Positions 4,845 to 23,606 of a stretch of DNA of 26,924 bases are shown one piece after another (positions within the stretch are counted from its first letter, which is position 1; every line of letters starts with the position of its first letter). The stretch comes from a virus: the IMG/VR virus record IMGVR_UViG_3300010151_000117, positions 1-26,924 of that record; one strand, written 5' to 3'. The position numbers and the translations under genes are program-made. Below the pieces are notes generated by a model that saw only the letters and a program-made list of their open reading frames with translations, was not told the origin of the DNA and made no database searches.

Positions 4845-7352
4845 ATGCCTATATCTGGTGTCTTTGATAAACAAAAAAACTCGCTTGCAAAGCGGGTGCT
4901 AGACTTTTATGAAGATGCTAGATATAATTATTTATCTGCAAGAGAAGACTCTAAAACCTATGGTAAAAATTGGAAGAAATCTGTTAAGAAAATAAGAGAT
5001 GACTTTGATGGATTAAATGAATTCTCAACTGAAATGAAAAAATATTTAGATGAAAAAACAGTCTTTGATGATAATGTGTCGGATGCTTCATCAGTCCAAG
5101 CAAGAGAATTATTTAAACAAATTAAAGATTTAAGATTTAATTCTGAAGAACTTAATGACCCGTTTGCTAAACAAATGGGAGAAGATGTAATAGATACTTT
5201 ATTAGCAGAAGCACATGTATATGCTAAATTTTGTCATTACGCATTAAGAGCACATAGCGGTGCTATACCTGATGAAGCATGGCAACAACATAAATTGCCT
5301 CCTGACACAATTACACCTAGCGTAATGGGATTAGATTTAGCCGTTAGTGATATTCCATTATATATTATAGAACACTATGGCGATGATAAGGACACTAAAA
5401 GAATTAGACCAAAATTCAAGGCTGCTCTTGAACTCTTAAAAAAGGTGTATATGACTAATAACTCAGAAGAAAATTGGAATAAGTTAATTCAATTAGAAAT
5501 TAAAAAAAACGATGAGAATGAAGAAAAAGCAGAAATAGATTTTATAGTACCAAATAAACCAATGTATAGAATATTTGAAATAAACGATATAAAAGAACTA
5601 AAGGGATTTAGTGGTGACTGGTTAGTTCAAGAAAAATACGATGGTATTAGAATACAAATCCATAAAATGGATGAAAAGGTTAAGATATTTACCTATAACA
5701 AAAAAGATATTACAAGCCAATGTAAAAACATTGTAGATAAATTAAAAGCAAAACATTTTGGTGATGTGATTTTAGATGCAGAATTAATATTATATGATAA
5801 TGATGAACCACTACATAGAGCAGATACAATTGCTCATCTATTCAAAGGAAAATATAAGGGTGCAGAATTAAAGGCAAGGGTCTTTGATATTATGCACCAT
5901 GAAGATAAAGACATATCTGATTATCCATTAAAAGAAAGAATAAACATAATGTTTTATCAGTTTAGTCAGCATTCTTCAGACGATTTAGGTTTCCCTAATA
6001 AAAAGAATTCAAAGATAGCAGATTCTATTAAAGAAGTAGAAAAATATTCAGAAGCAATAATGCAATCTAGAACTTCAGAGGGTGTAGTAATTAAAGATAT
6101 GGAATCAACTTATTACATAGGAAGCAAGAAAAACCCTAAATGGATTAAATGGAAAAAGTTTGTAGATTTAGATGTTATTGTTTTAGATAAGAAAAAAACA
6201 AAGTCTAATTTATATTCATATTCTGTTGGTGTTGGGCCATTAACAGGAGAAGAAACTAGAGAACATAATGTTAAGGAGATTGACGGTAAATCTTATTTGC
6301 CTGTAGGTAAAGCATTAAACACGAAACAAAGTGTTGAAGTAGGCTCTATTATAAGAGTAAAGGTCGATGAAGTAAAAAGAAAAGGAAAAGGATATAGTTT
6401 ATTTTCCGCTAAAGTAATTGAAATACCTGAAGTAGAAACACCTGAAAAATTAATTACTTTAGAATTATTAGCAAAGGATAGTAAGAAATCCCTTGCTTAT
6501 GATGTTCAAGATGCGTTATTAAAATATACTATAACTGATGGTATTCATGGTAAAGCGGATATTATTTTAAAGGGTGATTATGAAGGGTTTACTATATATG
6601 GTTTTAATGGAGATTCTTTAATGGAAAAGAATGCTTTAACAGATATAGATGATTGGAAAGACCAATTAATGGAAATAAATAAAACTAAATCTTCTGAAGC
6701 AAGAGGGATTATTAAGAACTTTTTAATTGAAAAAGACCCAAATAAAGATGGTGTGGAAATAGAAGAAATATTTAAATTTATCAAAAAACAAAGACCCGAA
6801 GAAACTAATATTTTATGGACTAATCAAATAAATAAATTAAAAAATTGGATGAATGATTATGATGAGTTTATTCCTATTGGTGCTAATAAGTTTACTTACA
6901 ATGATTCACATATAACAAAAAAAGCACCAAAAGAAGAACATGGGAAGTTTGCATTATATATGAGAAAGGACAAAAACATTAATTTAGTTATTGATTATGA
7001 AGATAAAACATTGGCTTGGATTATAAATGTAGAAGACACAGAAGACATTTTTAATTTGTTTGGTAAAGCAGGAAAGTTCCCAGCCGAAATTGCTAATAAT
7101 ATAGATAGAGAAGAATTATTAGATAAGGGCAAGATTGAATTAGGTGTTCAAAGACATGGTTATCATGAATATAGGATAGATGGAAATCGTTTTGATACTA
7201 GATTACACTTTAGAGTTGTTCCTGTTAATAAAAAAGATACATGGATAGTATGGACAGGCTATAAACAAGAAATGCTAGATAAGAAAGAAAATGAAGATTT
7301 ATGGGATATTACCCAAGATAGGTTTAAAAAATTAACCATGCAAATTGAATAA
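4845..7352 (+). CDS. ATP-dependent DNA ligase with long N- and C-terminal extensions
   Basis: It seals DNA nicks through a lysyl-AMP intermediate. The nucleotidyltransferase signature is complete: motif I KYDG with Lys264 as the adenylated lysine, followed by IRIQIH; the acidic DAELILYD segment near 311-318; VFDIM at 346-350; EGVVIK at 412-417; and WIKWKK at 433-438. An OB-fold region follows to about 540. The first 240 residues are mostly helical and could be a DNA-binding domain. Residues of about 545-835 are an extra C-terminal part ending with the segments ELGVQRHGYHEY and DTRLHFRVVP. By eye these recall the 3'-phosphoesterase domain of LigD-type ligases, but I could not verify that. At 835 aa it is larger than the usual 550-600 aa archaeal enzyme. 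Its place between portal and protease genes is unusual for a replication or repair enzyme and suggests late expression or packaging. Confidence 0.92.
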   Translation: MPISGVFDKQKNSLAKRVLDFYEDARYNYLSAREDSKTYGKNWKKSVKKIRDDFDGLNEFSTEMKKYLDEKTVFDDNVSDASSVQARELFKQIKDLRFNSEELNDPFAKQMGEDVIDTLLAEAHVYAKFCHYALRAHSGAIPDEAWQQHKLPPDTITPSVMGLDLAVSDIPLYIIEHYGDDKDTKRIRPKFKAALELLKKVYMTNNSEENWNKLIQLEIKKNDENEEKAEIDFIVPNKPMYRIFEINDIKELKGFSGDWLVQEKYDGIRIQIHKMDEKVKIFTYNKKDITSQCKNIVDKLKAKHFGDVILDAELILYDNDEPLHRADTIAHLFKGKYKGAELKARVFDIMHHEDKDISDYPLKERINIMFYQFSQHSSDDLGFPNKKNSKIADSIKEVEKYSEAIMQSRTSEGVVIKDMESTYYIGSKKNPKWIKWKKFVDLDVIVLDKKKTKSNLYSYSVGVGPLTGEETREHNVKEIDGKSYLPVGKALNTKQSVEVGSIIRVKVDEVKRKGKGYSLFSAKVIEIPEVETPEKLITLELLAKDSKKSLAYDVQDALLKYTITDGIHGKADIILKGDYEGFTIYGFNGDSLMEKNALTDIDDWKDQLMEINKTKSSEARGIIKNFLIEKDPNKDGVEIEEIFKFIKKQRPEETNILWTNQINKLKNWMNDYDEFIPIGANKFTYNDSHITKKAPKEEHGKFALYMRKDKNINLVIDYEDKTLAWIINVEDTEDIFNLFGKAGKFPAEIANNIDREELLDKGKIELGVQRHGYHEYRIDGNRFDTRLHFRVVPVNKKDTWIVWTGYKQEMLDKKENEDLWDITQDRFKKLTMQIE
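4879..4897 (+). other. Possible RNA hairpin near the start of the ligase gene
   Basis: ACTCGCTT pairs with AAGCGGGT around a GCA loop (8 pairs, one of them U-G). It follows a run of A and lies 34 bases into the ligase coding sequence. It may affect translation, or be chance; nothing else supports a role. Confidence 0.35.
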
Positions 7353-10009: not shown

Positions 10010-10363
10010 ATGGCTTTAGCATATACGGTAACACTTTTGGCTGACCATAAGGGTATGACTACACCAAGAGTTCATGGTGATGAATACTTTGTGGATGCCT
10101 TAGTAGATGTAACATCAATAGTAGCGGCAGGTTCAGTAATACCTGCTTCTGCTTTTGGTTTAAGTAGAATCAATACTGTATTGATTACAGGTTCTGATAA
10201 TGCTAATGCAGTGTTACCTTCAGTGGAAACAACTGCGGCGGGTGCTTATGAGAGTGGAACTTCTTTCGCTCTTATGTTTACCTCATTAGATGGAACAAAT
10301 GCTACTTTGGCTAACGATGCTAATGGCGGAAGCACTAGAGTTCGTGTTTACGGCATACTCTGA
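10010..10363 (+). CDS. Probable capsid decoration or minor capsid protein (117 aa)
   Basis: A small beta-rich protein with alternating hydrophobic segments (YTVTLLADH, YFVDALVDVTSIVAAGSVIPAS, INTVLITGSDNANAVLPSV, GSTRVRVYGIL), no cysteines and no membrane segment. It follows the capsid gene by 11 bases behind GGTGAT with 5-base spacing and shares the capsid gene's less AT-rich composition, suggesting high output. Small beta proteins in this slot usually decorate the shell. The call rests on position and composition; a minor tail or fibre role cannot be excluded. Confidence 0.65.
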   Translation: MALAYTVTLLADHKGMTTPRVHGDEYFVDALVDVTSIVAAGSVIPASAFGLSRINTVLITGSDNANAVLPSVETTAAGAYESGTSFALMFTSLDGTNATLANDANGGSTRVRVYGIL

Positions 10364-10373
10364 TTATTCAGAG
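10358..10373 (+). other. Short hairpin overlapping the stop codon
   Basis: CTCTGA pairs with TCAGAG around the loop TTAT (6 perfect pairs). The TGA stop of the decoration-protein gene (10361-10363) is in the 5' arm. It stands 5 bases before the larger hairpin at 10379-10420. Confidence 0.6.
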
Positions 10374-10378
10374 ATAAC

Positions 10379-10420
10379 GTGGGTTCTGTCTCCTTGCAAT
10401 AGCAGGGAGGCGGAACTCAC
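10379..10420 (+). terminator. Strong 19-bp RNA hairpin after the capsid genes (terminator, processing or stability element)
   Basis: The arms 10379-10397 and 10402-10420 pair along 19 positions without a mismatch around the tetraloop AATA. Four of the pairs are G-U. These pair in the + strand transcript but would be C-A mismatches in a minus-strand RNA, so the structure belongs to the + strand message. No U-run follows, which argues against a plain bacterial-type intrinsic terminator. Partial termination, a 3'-end stabiliser or an RNase processing site for the abundant capsid message are all possible. Confidence 0.75.
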
Positions 10421-10438
10421 AACATTAGGTGATTAATA

Positions 10439-10822
10439 ATGGCAAAATTAACTTATTTAGGAATTGAGCGCAAACGCTCTTTAATTAAAAGAATGTCTAT
10501 TGGAGCAGGAGAAACCATAGACATTAATCCGATTCACGCTTTAACATATTTAGGTGATGATGATTTCAAAATACTATTTGAAAAGTCAGACAAAGAAGCA
10601 TTAGAAAATTGTAGTGATGGTCAACAAAAGAGATTAATTCATGAATTTAATTGTAAAAACTTAAAGGAAGTTTTAAATACAATGTATCCAAAATCAAAAC
10701 CATCAGTTTTTAAACAAAAAGAAACAAAGAAAACTACGGTGGTTAAACCAATTAAAAAAATAGAAAAGAAAGAAAAGCCTGTAGTAATCCCAACGAAAAC
10801 GGCTTTTGCTACGGAAGATTGA
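10439..10822 (+). CDS. Hypothetical virion-region protein with Lys-rich tail (127 aa)
   Basis: The N-terminal 85 residues mix strands and helices (LTYLGIERKRSLIKRMSIGAG, with a GAGETIDI turn). The last 40 residues are Lys/Thr/Pro-rich (for example KKTTVVKPIKKIEKKEKP) and probably disordered and nucleic-acid or surface binding. The start is decided by GGTGAT at 10428-10433, 5 bases upstream. It sits just after the hairpin pair. Family not recognised. It could be a head-completion protein, but the classical adaptor candidates lie further downstream. Confidence 0.65.
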   Translation: MAKLTYLGIERKRSLIKRMSIGAGETIDINPIHALTYLGDDDFKILFEKSDKEALENCSDGQQKRLIHEFNCKNLKEVLNTMYPKSKPSVFKQKETKKTTVVKPIKKIEKKEKPVVIPTKTAFATED

Positions 10823-10861
10823 TATACCCAACCGATGTGAAGGATATTAGGAGGAACTGAT

Positions 10862-11212
10862 ATGGGAAGTAGTAGTGTATGCACAAAAACACACGCTTTT
10901 TCATCTAACGCATCTGATGCTACAATAGATGGAACAGCAGGAAGACAACAAAAACAATTATTTATTGGGAGACAAAAAATACAGTCTTTAAAAGTAAGTA
11001 ACAATCAAACAACCGCTATGACTATTGATTTTTATGATGGCGAAGGCGTATCAGCATTTAATGGAAAATTAATCCATAGAGTGCATGTTGGTGCAGTTAG
11101 AGAAAATTTAGATTTTGATATGCATGGTTGTGTTGTAAATAGTGGATTATATGTTCTAGTTAGTGGGGCAGGAACTAAAGTAAATGTATCAGTTTCTGCT
11201 CAATATAATTAG
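10862..11212 (+). CDS. Small beta-sandwich-like virion protein (116 aa)
   Basis: A beta-rich protein: IQSLKVSNNQTTAMTIDFYD, NGKLIHRVHVGAVRENLDFD, GCVVNSGLYVLVSGAGTKVNVSVSAQYN. The pattern of a short strand pair, an LDFDMHGC turn, then NSGLYVLVSG and a final strand ending at an aromatic residue is one I associate with small structural proteins near phage capsid genes, possibly decoration or turret proteins. It has two cysteines and no signal peptide. It starts behind AGGAGG. The function is inferred from fold impression and location. Confidence 0.6.
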   Translation: MGSSSVCTKTHAFSSNASDATIDGTAGRQQKQLFIGRQKIQSLKVSNNQTTAMTIDFYDGEGVSAFNGKLIHRVHVGAVRENLDFDMHGCVVNSGLYVLVSGAGTKVNVSVSAQYN

Positions 11213-11220
11213 GTGAAATA

Positions 11221-11640
11221 ATGCCGGCATTGGAAAAAGACACAAAATTAGTAATGACAATATTGTTCGTAGGAGCAATATGTGGCGTAAATGTATTCTT
11301 TTACGCCGAGTTCGGCCATTTGTTGGCCTTCTCAGCCTACTCACATGCAGTAGTTTTCTCATTAATGACTATTGGTGGGATATTAGTAATGAAAGCAATA
11401 TTTGACTTAGCATTAAATGATTATATAGAAATGACCTTATTAGATAGGAGAATTTCTGCTTATTGGGCACGAAGACAAAAAGACGAAAAGCAAAGAGAAA
11501 GAATCAGGCAAAGTCTTCAACAATATAATCAACAATGGGGCATGAATCCTCAAGGAAATGCCTTTTTAAGTGCTGCTCCTCAATCTCAACCAAAAGAACC
11601 AGTTGAGACACCTTTCTTTGAATTTCCTAAAATACAGTGA
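11221..11640 (+). CDS. Two-pass membrane protein of the GTPase cassette (139 aa)
   Basis: Two hydrophobic segments, about residues 9-28 and 41-64, are linked by a short AEFGHLLAFSAYS turn. A charged helix follows (RRQKDEKQRERIRQSLQQYNQQ, in part) and then a Gln/Pro-rich tail ending FFEFPKIQ. With this charge pattern the long C-terminal tail probably stays inside the cell or particle. It starts behind GGTGA and leads a run of closely spaced genes that includes the GTPase. It looks like neither a canonical holin nor a spanin, though a lysis role cannot be excluded. DNA inside the hairpin-forming part (11284-11328) is locally richer in G and C than the rest of the gene. Confidence 0.7.
   Translation: MPALEKDTKLVMTILFVGAICGVNVFFYAEFGHLLAFSAYSHAVVFSLMTIGGILVMKAIFDLALNDYIEMTLLDRRISAYWARRQKDEKQRERIRQSLQQYNQQWGMNPQGNAFLSAAPQSQPKEPVETPFFEFPKIQ
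11284..11328 (+). repeat. Three chained inverted repeats inside a coding sequence
   Basis: GGCGTAAA/TTTACGCC (11284-11291 with 11300-11307), GCCGA/TCGGC (11305-11309 with 11312-11316) and GGCCA/TGGCC (11314-11318 with 11324-11328) are all perfect. Neighbouring repeats share bases, so the middle hairpin competes with the other two. They lie in the coding sequence of the two-pass membrane protein. Confidence 0.6.
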
Positions 11641-11648
11641 GGAATTAG

Positions 11649-11873
11649 ATGCTAGAACAAGTATTAATGGGATTTGATGAAACCACTTTAGCATATGACT
11701 TACAACGTGCTCATTCTGCTGATGTATGGTTTTTAAGGGCTAGGTTCTTCATTTGGGGAACTGTGGCTACCATAAGTTCTTTTTTATTAGGACAACTCTT
11801 AACCATATTTGGTGTTAATGTTGTATTATCATCATGGGAGGGTTTTTGGAATTTTATCTATACCTATGTCTGA
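11649..11873 (+). CDS. Small membrane protein of the GTPase cassette (74 aa)
   Basis: An N-terminal soluble stretch of about 30 residues (GFDETTLAYDLQRAHSADVW) is followed by a hydrophobic segment at about 33-55 (FFIWGTVATISSFLLGQLL) and a second hydrophobic aromatic end (58-74, SSWEGFWNFIYTYV), so one or two membrane passes. It begins 8 bases after the preceding stop behind GAGGA and ends 9 bases before the GTPase gene. Function unknown. With the 139-aa protein it could form a membrane platform for the GTPase. Confidence 0.65.
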   Translation: MLEQVLMGFDETTLAYDLQRAHSADVWFLRARFFIWGTVATISSFLLGQLLTIFGVNVVLSSWEGFWNFIYTYV

Positions 11874-11882
11874 GGGAATATT

Positions 11883-12551
11883 ATGTCCTTGATGACAGGC
11901 TTTGTTATTGTTGTAATGGAACAAATAGGATTATTTTGGAAAAAAATGAACCCTCATCCTTTTGGTGTATATGGAGCAACACAAGTAGGTAAAACAACAT
12001 TACATCACCAATTAAGAACAAGAGGAGATGTACCACAAATTAAAAATAGAACTAAGGGTAGGGAAAAAGCAACAAGAAAAACAATTAAAATAGATGGAGA
12101 TACCCACACAATAAGAACAGCAGATGTAGGAGGAGAATCGCTTTATTGGGGAGAATGGCTACACGACATGAAAAAAAGAAAAGTAGAATACATTATTTTT
12201 ATGATTGATGATAGACATTTAGCAAAACATATAGATATAGAACAACAATTATGTTGGAAGTTTTTAGTGGATACAATAATTTCGCCTTATTGGGATATGA
12301 TTAATAAAAGACAAAAAAAACATAGAAATGATTATCCAAAGGGAATAGGCATATGGGCAAATAAATTTGATTTATGGAAAGATACATATTCTTATAAAGA
12401 TATACAAAGCCATCCAATTTTTGGAACATTTGAAGATGGACTACAAAAATTAAATGATAAAGGAATACCTACACATAAATATATAGTTAGTGCAAAATCA
12501 GATTCAGAAATGGTTTATAGAGGAATCACAACAATGATAGAAGATTATTAG
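11883..12551 (+). CDS. Arf/Ras-like small GTPase with hydrophobic N-terminus
   Basis: A TRAFAC-type small GTPase in which nearly the full G-motif set is visible: P-loop GATQVGKTT at residues 31-39 (Lys37), switch II DVGGE at 81-85 followed by a Trp-containing helix, G4 NKFD at 160-163 and G5 SAK at 203-205. Candidate G2 threonines lie at about 57-67. DVGG followed by W...  and then IIFMIDD is the Arf, SR-beta and MglA-like pattern. Arf proteins have Gln after DVGG; here it is Glu85, suggesting slow intrinsic hydrolysis or a different activation mode. Residues 1-18 are hydrophobic and could anchor it to a membrane. Two membrane-protein genes precede it and a Cys-rich peptide and a zinc-binding protein follow. 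It is far smaller than packaging ATPases and lacks their motifs. A GTPase in a virion operon is not something I know as standard. Confidence 0.85.
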   Translation: MSLMTGFVIVVMEQIGLFWKKMNPHPFGVYGATQVGKTTLHHQLRTRGDVPQIKNRTKGREKATRKTIKIDGDTHTIRTADVGGESLYWGEWLHDMKKRKVEYIIFMIDDRHLAKHIDIEQQLCWKFLVDTIISPYWDMINKRQKKHRNDYPKGIGIWANKFDLWKDTYSYKDIQSHPIFGTFEDGLQKLNDKGIPTHKYIVSAKSDSEMVYRGITTMIEDY

Positions 12552-12562
12552 GAGAAGATAAA

Positions 12563-12646
12563 ATGAAAAAAATAAGTTATTTTAAAAATTGTTCAGGCAG
12601 TATACTGTGTGAATTATATGAGCATAAATGTTGGTGTTTAGAATGA
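12563..12646 (+). CDS. 27-residue Cys-rich peptide (small ORF)
   Basis: ATG 12563 lies 8 bases after GGAG (12551-12554). The reading frame gives 27 residues with four cysteines at 10, 16, 23 and 25 (including HKCWC), and its TGA overlaps the next ATG as ATGA. The ribosome-binding site and coupling favour a real gene that fills the only gap in the cassette. The cysteines could bind zinc or form disulphides. Because it is so short, chance cannot be excluded; conservation in relatives would settle it. Confidence 0.45.
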   Translation: MKKISYFKNCSGSILCELYEHKCWCLE

Positions 12647-13317
12647 GTATGCAGTTTAACCCACCTAGTTTAATTGGTGCAACTAATGCTAGTGTTGCAA
12701 GTTCTTTTTTACCACCATTAAAATATGCAAGAGCACCTGGCTCTATTATAAAATATGAATATAAAAGCAGCAAACAAAAAAAACAATTAAAAGAAATGAT
12801 TAAAGTCCTTTGGCCTGAAAAAAAGACATTTTTAAAGATGCCATTTGGTTTTAAGTTTAATACTAAAGATAGATGTGTTGTATGTGGAACTCATAAAATA
12901 TGGGATTATTCAGACCCTGCTAGACCAACTATACCTTTACATAAAGTTAGAAAGGGTTATCCAATGAGAGGAACTTATTGTGATAAACATGCAGCATTAC
13001 ACAAACAATATGAAATGTTAGAACAACAAATTTTAGCAGAAGAACATGGGCTTTCTTTTAGTGCTTACATTCCTAAGCCAAGAGTGCCTAAAATTTTAGC
13101 ATCTGCACCGCTAACTTCATTAAGGCAATCCGATATTGAAACATTATCGGCAGGTGGTTGGACAATACGACCCCCTCAAATGAGCGTTGAATCATCAGAA
13201 GATGAATTATTTAGATTAACAATGGAAAGTCATGCCATCAATAATAGAATATTAGGTTTAATGACCAAAGGAACTAAAGTAGTTACACAAGAAATTAAAG
13301 AAATAGAGGTAGAATAA
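12643..13317 (+). CDS. Putative zinc-binding protein (224 aa)
   Basis: I choose ATG 12643 over the in-frame ATG 12628 because GGTG at 12633-12636 is 6 bases before it and it overlaps the preceding TGA. Cys78, Cys81, Cys113 and His116 (CVVC and CDKH) make a candidate treble-clef or HNH-like zinc site, with conserved-looking His100 and a WDYSDPARPTIPLHKV segment between. The HNH resemblance is weak and no nuclease activity is claimed. A helical region follows (about 117-140), then a linker with ETLSAGGWTIRPPQ. The N-terminus is hydrophobic and Ala/Ser/Pro-rich. It closes the GTPase cassette and runs straight into the next gene, which starts 1 base after its stop. Confidence 0.65.
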   Translation: MSMQFNPPSLIGATNASVASSFLPPLKYARAPGSIIKYEYKSSKQKKQLKEMIKVLWPEKKTFLKMPFGFKFNTKDRCVVCGTHKIWDYSDPARPTIPLHKVRKGYPMRGTYCDKHAALHKQYEMLEQQILAEEHGLSFSAYIPKPRVPKILASAPLTSLRQSDIETLSAGGWTIRPPQMSVESSEDELFRLTMESHAINNRILGLMTKGTKVVTQEIKEIEVE

Positions 13318-13318
13318 T

Positions 13319-14023
13319 ATGGGCGTATTTGGAACAAGTAATAGCAATTTAGCAACACAAATGGATGCACAAAGTGCTGCACATTTTAAAGTAACTAATA
13401 ATTTATTAACGTTACAAACAAATCATGTAGAAGAATTTTTTGAATATCATGGACAAAATTTCTTTATTGCATTAGAAAAGATGATGGAAGATGTTACAGA
13501 ACGAGTAGTAAGTCAAATGCTATCTAAATTAAGATTTACACAAGGTAGTAGTGGAGAATTAGTAGTTCATTCAGATTGTTTACGTGATTATGAACAAATA
13601 ACTGCTGAAAATATACAATTAGATATTAATAATATGCTTGCAGCGTGTATGAATACTGAAGTTATTATGCAAAGAAAGATGGCTAAGCAACAATATTTAG
13701 AAACACAAGGCTTTGCTTCTCAAATGCCTCAACAACAAATGTCACAGCAAATGGGTGGTATGCCTAATGCTGGAGGATTAAACCCTGCACAGATTAGTGG
13801 TGGTAATCCTGTTATGCAAGCAAATAATATGATGATGCAACAACAACAAGCATTTAATAATCCATCAGGTTATCCTGTTCCACCGGCAGGTAATGATACA
13901 ATGGGTAATCCTTATTGGATTGACCCAAATACAGGACAACCAACCTATACACCGCCTGGTTCTGGTGTTGGATTAACAGGTTTAATACAGAAAGGTGCTG
14001 CTTGGGCGGCTTGGTTAGCATGA
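13319..14023 (+). CDS. Gln/Met/Asn-rich hypothetical virion protein (234 aa)
   Basis: Residues 1-135 are helical, with repeated helices (NLLTLQTNHVEEFFEYHGQN, EKMMEDVTERVVSQMLSKL). Residues of about 135-215 are low complexity, rich in Gln, Met, Asn, Gly and Pro (QQQMSQQMGGM, NNMMMQQQQAF), and include DPNTGQPTYTPP. The C-terminus ends in a short hydrophobic stretch, GLIQKGAAWAAWLA. Such composition is seen in phase-separating or surface-adhesive proteins, and the hydrophobic end could insert in membranes or pack in a pore. No family is recognised. It starts 1 base after the zinc protein and may belong functionally with the cassette or with the head-tail genes that follow. Confidence 0.65.
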   Translation: MGVFGTSNSNLATQMDAQSAAHFKVTNNLLTLQTNHVEEFFEYHGQNFFIALEKMMEDVTERVVSQMLSKLRFTQGSSGELVVHSDCLRDYEQITAENIQLDINNMLAACMNTEVIMQRKMAKQQYLETQGFASQMPQQQMSQQMGGMPNAGGLNPAQISGGNPVMQANNMMMQQQQAFNNPSGYPVPPAGNDTMGNPYWIDPNTGQPTYTPPGSGVGLTGLIQKGAAWAAWLA

Positions 14024-22568: not shown

Positions 22569-23606
22569 ATGCCAGGGGTATTTGTAGGCAATACAAAATC
22601 ATTAGTGTTTCCTGTGATGTGTGACGGTTATTTACAAATGAATTATGCTGATAAAAATGCCAACACCGGCACACATATAGATTTAAGACAGGGAATTTGG
22701 GGTCATAATGACTCTTTTACTATTGAAGCAATAATTACACCTTATGATGTAAATGGCTTTGGTTCAAAAGGAAGCACAGCAACAGGTGTTACTACTTCTG
22801 AAAAAACACCTCCTAGTGTTAATATTGATAATTCTAATTTAACTCATTACCAAAGTCAGGATTATTTTACTCCTACTCAAAGGAATACACATAAAATGAT
22901 GTTATTCCATAGTGATGGTTTTGAATTATATTTACAAAATACTACTGATAATAATTTTAATCAGCCTGCTGAATATAAATTGTGTGCTAAAGTTGGAACT
23001 GAAACACCAATAGAAACCGGAACTATTATTTCTTCTAGAAATGAATTGTTTGGGTATTCAGATTTAACTGGTATATATAATGGAATTTCTACTTCTTTAA
23101 GACTATTAGATGCAGCCACATTAGATAGTGGGGCTATAATAGCATTAGCCACTGCAAGTAATGTTAATAAAGTAGCAGTAGGAACAGAATTATTTGATAA
23201 TACCGGAACATCAATTGGTAAAGTAACAGTTGTAGATAGTGATAATGGAAAATTAACTTTAGATACTCCCCAATCAACCAGAAGTGTATATTATTCCCAA
23301 CCAAAAGAGGCTACTTATTTAGAGACAATGTATAAAATAACTTGTTGTTTACACATTGATGGGAAAATAAGATTATTTATCAACAATACTTTATTGGTTG
23401 AAGAAAAAGTAACTATTACAGATTTCAATTTTGGCACGACTGATTGCTATATTGGTAGAGACCCAGATTCTGAATTTAATACTCAATTTATGGGAGAACT
23501 TTATGAAATTGCAATGTATAGGAGACCAGAACCTACCCTATCCTCAAGCACATTAAATGTTGGATACAATGATACTATTTTCTATTATAGGTTTGGTGAT
23601 TTATGA
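22569..23606 (+). CDS. LamG/concanavalin-like lectin domain tail protein (345 aa)
   Basis: A probable receptor-binding or adhesion protein at the tail tip. The jelly-roll pattern of LamG-type lectins is visible in two halves: DSFTIEAIITPYD near residue 48, and YKITCCLHIDGKIRLFINNTLL then YIGRDPDSEF and MGELYEIAMYRRPEP at about 255-325. Between the halves, at about 150-250, is an insertion containing GTELFDNTGTSIGKVTVVD, a small beta module that reappears in the next protein. The final segment DTIFYYRFGDL overlaps the following start. Sugar or glycoprotein binding is expected from the fold family; the ligand is unknown. Confidence 0.72.
   Translation: MPGVFVGNTKSLVFPVMCDGYLQMNYADKNANTGTHIDLRQGIWGHNDSFTIEAIITPYDVNGFGSKGSTATGVTTSEKTPPSVNIDNSNLTHYQSQDYFTPTQRNTHKMMLFHSDGFELYLQNTTDNNFNQPAEYKLCAKVGTETPIETGTIISSRNELFGYSDLTGIYNGISTSLRLLDAATLDSGAIIALATASNVNKVAVGTELFDNTGTSIGKVTVVDSDNGKLTLDTPQSTRSVYYSQPKEATYLETMYKITCCLHIDGKIRLFINNTLLVEEKVTITDFNFGTTDCYIGRDPDSEFNTQFMGELYEIAMYRRPEPTLSSSTLNVGYNDTIFYYRFGDL

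Follow-up and report, generated by a model that had tools for sequence, protein, structure and literature searches.

In Haloferax volcanii, the small GTPase ArvA carries an N-terminal helix, and its loss lowers while its overexpression raises vesicle output (PMC10927574). It is encoded in an operon with ArvB and the Zn-ribbon protein ArvC, for which a role as GTPase-activating protein (GAP) has been suggested (PMC10927574). For most archaeal viruses, the mechanism of egress is as yet unknown (PMC4456609). Here, we describe a small GTPase gene that is embedded, together with genes for two membrane proteins, in the virion operon of a tailed virus. It lies in a stretch of viral DNA of 26,924 nucleotides, called the window in the following (IMG/VR virus record IMGVR_UViG_3300010151_000117, positions 1 to 26,924), in which positions 11221-13317 hold five tightly packed features on the plus strand: the membrane proteins TM139 and TM74, the GTPase, a Cys-containing micro-open reading frame (micro-ORF) and the putative zinc protein Zn229. 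The GTPase gene was always accompanied by the two membrane protein genes, and we tentatively infer a function for the block that we favour over its rivals, namely that of a late-expressed, GTP-switched membrane platform for virion assembly or egress.

The major capsid protein (MCP) and the portal protein of the window have their nearest named relatives in the Druskaviridae of haloarchaea. Long relatives of the window span 92-103 kb and encode their own family B polymerase (PolB), which is present in two pieces in seven of the nine records with a match; in the other two, stops were read through and the match was a single one. A PolB in two separate pieces is a feature reported for magroviruses (PMC10768690). 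On the basis of its Druskaviridae-related capsid and portal proteins, a genome of 90-110 kb and a PolB of its own, the virus of the window is a magrovirus (Magrovirales), and its host is presumed, following the magrovirus papers, to belong to the Poseidoniales. Aoguangviridae (magrovirus clade B) have a PolB split into N- and C-terminal domains, genomes of about 92 kb and a GC content of 31.5%, compared with 32.6% for the window.

Co-inheritance and origin of the block

With the GTPase alone as a query, 64 IMG/VR loci and one probably misbinned contig were retrieved, and a profile search raised the number of confirmed relatives to 367. The misbinned contig, NZMJ01000101.1, is a magrovirus contig that was deposited within the metagenome-assembled genome of a Maricaulis sp. 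At all 196 GTPase loci with enough upstream DNA, a set that includes some overlapping stretches of single contigs, the order is TM139-TM74-GTPase. When loci of the clade were counted from the capsid gene instead, provided that 3 kb or more of downstream DNA was available, the three genes were found in 222 of 222 cases and in all 150 with distinct MCP sequences, so that the membrane genes accompany the GTPase just as the earlier note on this DNA had supposed. A GTPase gene travelling alone was not found at any locus. The gene is present as a single copy in each single-genome record tested; a record of 184,733 bases that carries two copies 92 kb apart probably represents two magrovirus genomes joined in assembly.

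Compared with the window proteins, the GTPases of the first set of loci had a median identity of 74% and the MCPs one of 66%. The ratio of nonsynonymous to synonymous divergence (dN/dS) amounted to 0.12-0.24 for the GTPase and to 0.10-0.24 for the membrane genes. Because the switch and nucleotide-binding residues are invariant and dN/dS is well below 1, the gene appears to encode a working switch. Its synonymous divergence (dS) from the closest relatives is 0.29-0.38, as against 0.4-1.0 for most neighbouring genes, and reaches about a third to half of that of the adjacent membrane genes. A low GC content at third codon positions may account for part of this effect, and a recent exchange of the gene is possible.

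The block is flanked by three small head genes upstream (10010-11212) and by neck and tail genes downstream. A capsid profile that included the Druskaviridae gave access to an intermediate marine sister lineage whose records reach 94 kb and whose polymerase is not split. At 27 loci of this lineage, MCP, d117 and the neck gene p363 are clear, and TM139, TM74, GTPase, Zn229 and p234, the last probably a further member of the block, are all missing. Where such loci were inspected more closely, one protein of 788-1027 amino acids (aa) with no transmembrane (TM) segment occupies the slot. This large protein was considered as a fused or degraded block and rejected as such; profiles of Zn229, p234 and p622 gave no match to it. 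The GTPase profile, which recovers the gene in 15 carrier records, found nothing elsewhere in nine sister-lineage and four druskavirus-type records, several of which are partial. The idea that the block is universal among the relatives of this capsid was likewise rejected, as it is absent from both the sister lineage and the Druskaviridae.

Between unchanged flanking genes, the block is thus either there as a whole or missing as a whole, which bears out its description as embedded in a virion operon. It is also in this block-wise presence and absence, and no longer in the spacing on which the earlier note had relied, that the best argument for a joint action of the genes lies. In a capsid tree rooted at the midpoint and with long outgroup branches, the carriers group together in one clade (100/100) that lies within the non-carriers. 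Most simply, the block was gained once, as a unit, by the ancestor of the large magrovirus clade and kept by every sampled member; repeated loss in the non-carriers would be the less simple explanation. The druskavirus HVTV-1 encodes a 110-aa single-TM protein, gp124 (L067, 14199-14531), in the slot of the magrovirus block. As gp124 occupies the same slot and has no detectable homology to the block proteins, a membrane protein at this position may be older than the block.

Two alternatives to a membrane platform have to be weighed against this distribution. According to the first, the membrane proteins and the GTPase are packaged in the virion and, on entry, inserted into the membrane of the new host, in order to open it or to recruit factors there. 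The location of the genes between those for head decoration and neck and their universality in the clade are compatible with such a role. We nevertheless consider it improbable, as a nucleotide switch with intact motifs would be unusual as a structural part of a virion and the sister lineage lives without the block. The second alternative assigns the proteins no role in the particle at all and sees in them a late membrane complex for control of the host, which would block superinfection or reprogram membrane traffic, secretion or cell division. It draws on the membrane location, on the suitability of a GTPase switch for regulation, on the single, lineage-specific gain and on the small GTPases that giant viruses also encode. 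Accessory host-control genes, however, are usually patchy, whereas this block is found at each of the 150 distinct-MCP loci, and conservation is higher in the GTPase than in the capsid protein, such that this explanation also appears improbable to us.

The GTPase and the other members of the block

All five features are present in the DNA (Table 1), and the compact plus-strand cassette with complete GTPase motifs that had been reported for this DNA is far beyond chance. The intergenic gaps through the block measure 8, 8, 9 and 11 bases, after which the TGA of the micro-ORF overlaps the ATG of Zn229. The start of Zn229 is best placed at 12643; the open reading frame listing puts it at 12628, and it is from there that its residue numbers are counted. 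When the 26 genes of the window were held against the TM cut-off, those passing were the block membrane proteins, the tape measure protein and, with one borderline segment, d117.

Table 1. Features of the block in the window, and the large protein in the corresponding slot of the sister lineage
Feature	Position	Strand	Remarks
TM139, two-pass membrane protein, 139 aa	11221..11640	+	TM about 10-28 and 39-57; hydropathy, alignment
TM74, one-TM protein, 74 aa	11649..11873	+	one TM helix about 38-56; hydropathy, alignment
Small GTPase, 222 aa	11883..12551	+	motifs, profile search, predicted fold
GTPase N-terminal hydrophobic membrane-type helix, residues 2-21	11886..11945	+	G6, F7, E13 invariant; basic residues after
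G1/P-loop GATQVGKT, residues 31-38	11973..11996	+	G31, G36, K37, T38 invariant, 143 sequences
Putative G2/switch I R-T-x-G, residues 56-59	12048..12059	+	T57, G59 invariant in 143; assigned by position
G3/switch II DVGGE, residues 81-85	12123..12137	+	D81, G83, G84, W89, W92 invariant in 143
G4 NKFD, residues 160-163	12360..12371	+	N160, K161, D163 invariant in 143 sequences
G5 SAK, residues 203-205	12489..12497	+	S203, A204, K205 invariant in 143 sequences
Cys micro-ORF, 27 aa	12563..12646	+	recurrent Cys motif in close relatives
Zn229, CxxC...CxxH putative zinc protein, 224 aa	12643..13317	+	C83, C86, C118, H121 invariant
p234, conserved protein 3' of block, missing where block is missing	13319..14023	+	
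Large slot protein, sister lineage L349	8487-11420		
Large slot protein, sister lineage L374	8527-11610		
Large slot protein, sister lineage L339	8456-10822		

Judged from its motifs, its modelled fold and its Pfam score, the gene encodes a small GTPase of the Ras superfamily, for which GTP binding and hydrolysis are predicted. The score of the window protein against Pfam MMR_HSR1 (PF01926), 22.3 bits, is barely above the cut-off of 21.9, and the matches to small GTPases in Pfam and NCBIfam are weak. An AlphaFold2 model calculated from a 37-sequence alignment reached a pTM of 0.73 and a pLDDT of 73, with low confidence near switch I. When this model was submitted to Foldseek, more than 1000 matches were obtained at E < 0.001, the best at 7.9e-8 (Rab33), and the best 50 were Ras-superfamily and G-alpha proteins. 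Fold search and motifs therefore agree with the original assignment to the small GTPases, and a packaging or kinase P-loop family is ruled out.

As regards the subfamily, structure and sequence point in different directions, the fold being Arf-like and the sequence leaning to Ras. In a second structural alignment (VIA), Arl6 was the best match (Z 15.8; 2.7 Å over 162 residues), and the top rows were taken by Arl6, Arf6, Arl2, Arf1 and G-alpha, with Z of 14-15.8 and, for most rows, a root mean square deviation of 2.7-3.2 Å; neither Ras nor Rab was among the best 50 rows. T-x-G in switch I, DxGG in switch II and a tryptophan eleven residues past the G3 aspartate D81 are invariant (T57, G59, D81, G83, G84 and W92 in 143 distinct sequences), a combination that we take to be the pattern of the Arf and G-alpha families. 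By contrast, hhalign comparison of the profile with single sequences preferred H-Ras (93%) to Arf1 (13%), and a Pfam scan of 37 members matched Arf in 7, Ras in 32, SRPRB in 32 and MMR_HSR1 in 37. The catalytic glutamine of the Arf-type DxGGQ is replaced by glutamate in the window; at this position (residue 85), 113 of the 143 sequences have Glu and 30 have Gln. The term Arf-like, as used in the earlier note, is consequently appropriate for the predicted structure, whereas the sequence profile does not favour it. An affiliation with MglA, also proposed there, is contradicted: the MglA type is defined by a G3 motif without Asp (PMC4316618), D81 is invariant in the viral proteins, and an MglB/Roadblock partner (PF03259) was not detected across 12 magrovirus records, some of them partial.

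A GTPase of this kind might also serve particle assembly in a more direct way, comparable to that of ribosome-assembly GTPases, in that it would time or proofread the maturation of heads or their joining to tails, with the membrane proteins as a mere anchor. The match to MMR_HSR1 in 37 of 37 members, the dependable single copy and the position between decoration and neck genes speak for this possibility. It would, however, leave two co-inherited membrane proteins and the hydrophobic N-terminus without explanation, and the GTPase is lacking in the sister viruses, whose MCP, d117 and neck genes are the same. We regard it as quite unlikely.

The N-terminal helix of the GTPase has a mean hydrophobicity of 0.51-0.78 and a low helical moment of 0.12-0.32 and is thus hydrophobic, unlike the classic amphipathic Arf helix. 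In 32 of 57 homologues, the segment exceeds the TM cut-off of 1.6. The hydrophobic N-terminus seen at the outset is therefore real, although the segment of the window itself, with a KD19 of 1.29, lies just below the usual cut-off. In TM139, a helical tail of basic character follows the two TM helices, and a variable linker leads from it to an FL motif conserved at the C-terminus, of which F132 is invariant and L133 is present in more than 90% of the aligned sequences. TM74 starts with the motif AYDLQRAHSAD(V/I)WFLRAR, in which R20, A21, H22, S23, A24 and R32 are invariant, and continues with its single TM helix. From the flanking basic residues and the positive-inside rule, a cytoplasmic location is predicted for the G domain, the tail of TM139 and the motif of TM74.

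Class II holins have two TM segments, an N-in/C-in layout and a basic tail. TM139, with two TM segments, N-in/C-in by the positive-inside rule and a basic tail, could accordingly be imagined as the holin-like pore former of a lysis cassette whose timing is controlled by TM74 and the GTPase. A weak holin-family match of one TM74 member (E 0.12) points in the same direction, and it may be added in favour of this idea that, up to 2015, holin genes had not been recognised in any archaeal virus isolate (PMC4456609). On the other hand, searches for holin or named membrane families gave no significant match for any member of TM139 or TM74, and both proteins are strongly conserved, unlike the fast-evolving holins. 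Moreover, we know of no holin that needs a GTPase. All in all, we deem a lysis cassette very improbable.

The Cys micro-ORF recurs as NCSMxxxCxCxECKE, with a length of 19-33 aa, in many close relatives, and likely encodes an unannotated zinc microprotein. The Cys peptide of the earlier note is thus real and recurrent, but it is not universal, being missing in a divergent clade. Analysis of the region as an RNA structure gave no signal (z -1.3). In Zn229, C83, C86, C118 and H121 are invariant across 35 sequences; the protein has no Pfam, PDB or fold match, and its model (pTM 0.49) returned nothing in Foldseek.

Two further genes of the window were noted. At 4845-7352, among the head genes and between portal and protease, lies the gene of an 835-aa protein in which an ATP-dependent DNA ligase core is combined with long extensions; its place is the same in the relatives. 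At the tail end of the operon (22569-23606), a candidate receptor-binding protein of 345 aa is encoded, which gave a weak match to a concanavalin A-like (LamG) domain.

A possible GTP-switched membrane platform

Fixed gene order, block-wise inheritance, the Arf-like fold, the hydrophobic helix, the conserved switch and the precedent of ArvA together lead us to favour the membrane platform, if with less than even confidence. The block would be expressed late, together with the capsid genes, and TM139, TM74 and the N-terminal helix of the GTPase would join into a complex at the host membrane, on its cytoplasmic side. Loading with GTP would flip this complex between two states, one inactive and one assembled, with the conserved C-terminal peptide of TM139 and the N-terminal motif of TM74 as putative docking sites and with Zn229 as a possible partner or regulator of the switch. 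The most likely output would be local membrane remodelling or the tethering of assembling particles, either for assembly at the membrane or for release. By analogy, the mode of working might resemble that of the vesiculating archaeal GTPase ArvA, which likewise shares its operon with the gene for a zinc protein.

Several points weigh against this proposal. The ArvB and ArvC families are absent from the magrovirus records searched, Zn229 has no recognisable fold, and in the GTPase of the window itself, the N-terminal segment has no more than a marginal TM character. The sister marine viruses manage without the block, which therefore cannot be a general requirement for egress. The position in the operon could, taken by itself, reflect no more than the timing of expression, and a complex of the GTPase with TM139 and TM74 is something we infer. 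The stronger version of the proposal, that magroviruses own a membrane-remodelling machine of the Arf/ArvA type with which they shape the archaeal membrane for assembly or release, is in our view rather unlikely. If true, tailed viruses would thereby have their first machine of this kind, and abundant viruses of the ocean would have a new way of leaving the host.

Magroviruses infect one of the commonest archaeal groups of the ocean, and none has been cultured. A module that was acquired once and is kept universally provides four or five concrete proteins with which the question of archaeal virus egress can be addressed, and it may contribute to an understanding of the use that such viruses make of the host membrane during assembly or exit. 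The small GTPases gain a viral family with a fold close to that of the eukaryotic switches of vesicle traffic, and three partner families without recognised relatives are added.

Comparison with known systems

Among 50,697 phage records, no relatives of TM139 or Zn229 were found, and the GTPase gave sub-threshold matches only. Searches for relatives of the GTPase yielded none in plasmids and none that was convincing in PHROGs. The literature on magroviruses and archaeal tailed viruses (arTVs) that was searched, which did not comprise the founding magrovirus papers, nowhere mentions the GTPase. The statement that no tailed-virus system of such make-up has been described is consistent with all tailed-virus sets searched, as none contained a relative.

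In viral predicted structures, nearly all of the 50 best matches of the GTPase are GTPases of giant viruses. The Rab/Ras-like proteins of giant viruses are also virus-encoded and have a similar fold, but they belong to eukaryotic viruses and are encoded outside the capsid operon; to our knowledge, they have no such membrane partners. The Druskaviridae (HVTV-1, HCTV-16) are related to the window virus by their MCP, portal, neck and tail-tube genes, and their corresponding slot holds a single-TM protein, but they lack GTPase, TM139, TM74, Zn229 and p234. The MglA/MglB system has in common with the viral block that MglA is a prokaryotic small GTPase; it differs in that the G3 Asp, invariant as D81 in the viral proteins, is missing from MglA, and no Roadblock protein was found in the 12 magrovirus records.

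With the eukaryotic and Asgard Arf, Arl, Sar1 and SR-beta proteins, which are its best structural matches, the viral GTPase shares T-x-G, D-x-G-G and the Trp at +11, and SR-beta has an N-terminal membrane anchor, to which the hydrophobic helix of the viral protein may correspond. It differs from them in a profile that does not favour Arf, in the glutamate that replaces the catalytic glutamine in most sequences and in the lack of Gly2 for myristoylation. ArvABC is similar in several respects: ArvA is an archaeal small GTPase that is Arf-like by structure, has PF01926 as its default annotation, carries an N-terminal membrane helix and shares its operon with a zinc protein. In the viral block, on the other hand, two integral membrane proteins come first, the genes are tied to those of the capsid, and the helix is hydrophobic and not amphipathic. 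ArvB (PF09846) was not found in 14 records, and ArvC (PF09845) gave two sub-threshold matches only, at 80.4 and 75.4 kb compared with 28.7 and 24.7 kb for the GTPase. The likeness to ArvA is thus best seen as an analogy of layout and not as membership. The switch as such is of a known kind; as far as tested, the module, the partners and the fixed place in the particle operon of a tailed virus are new.

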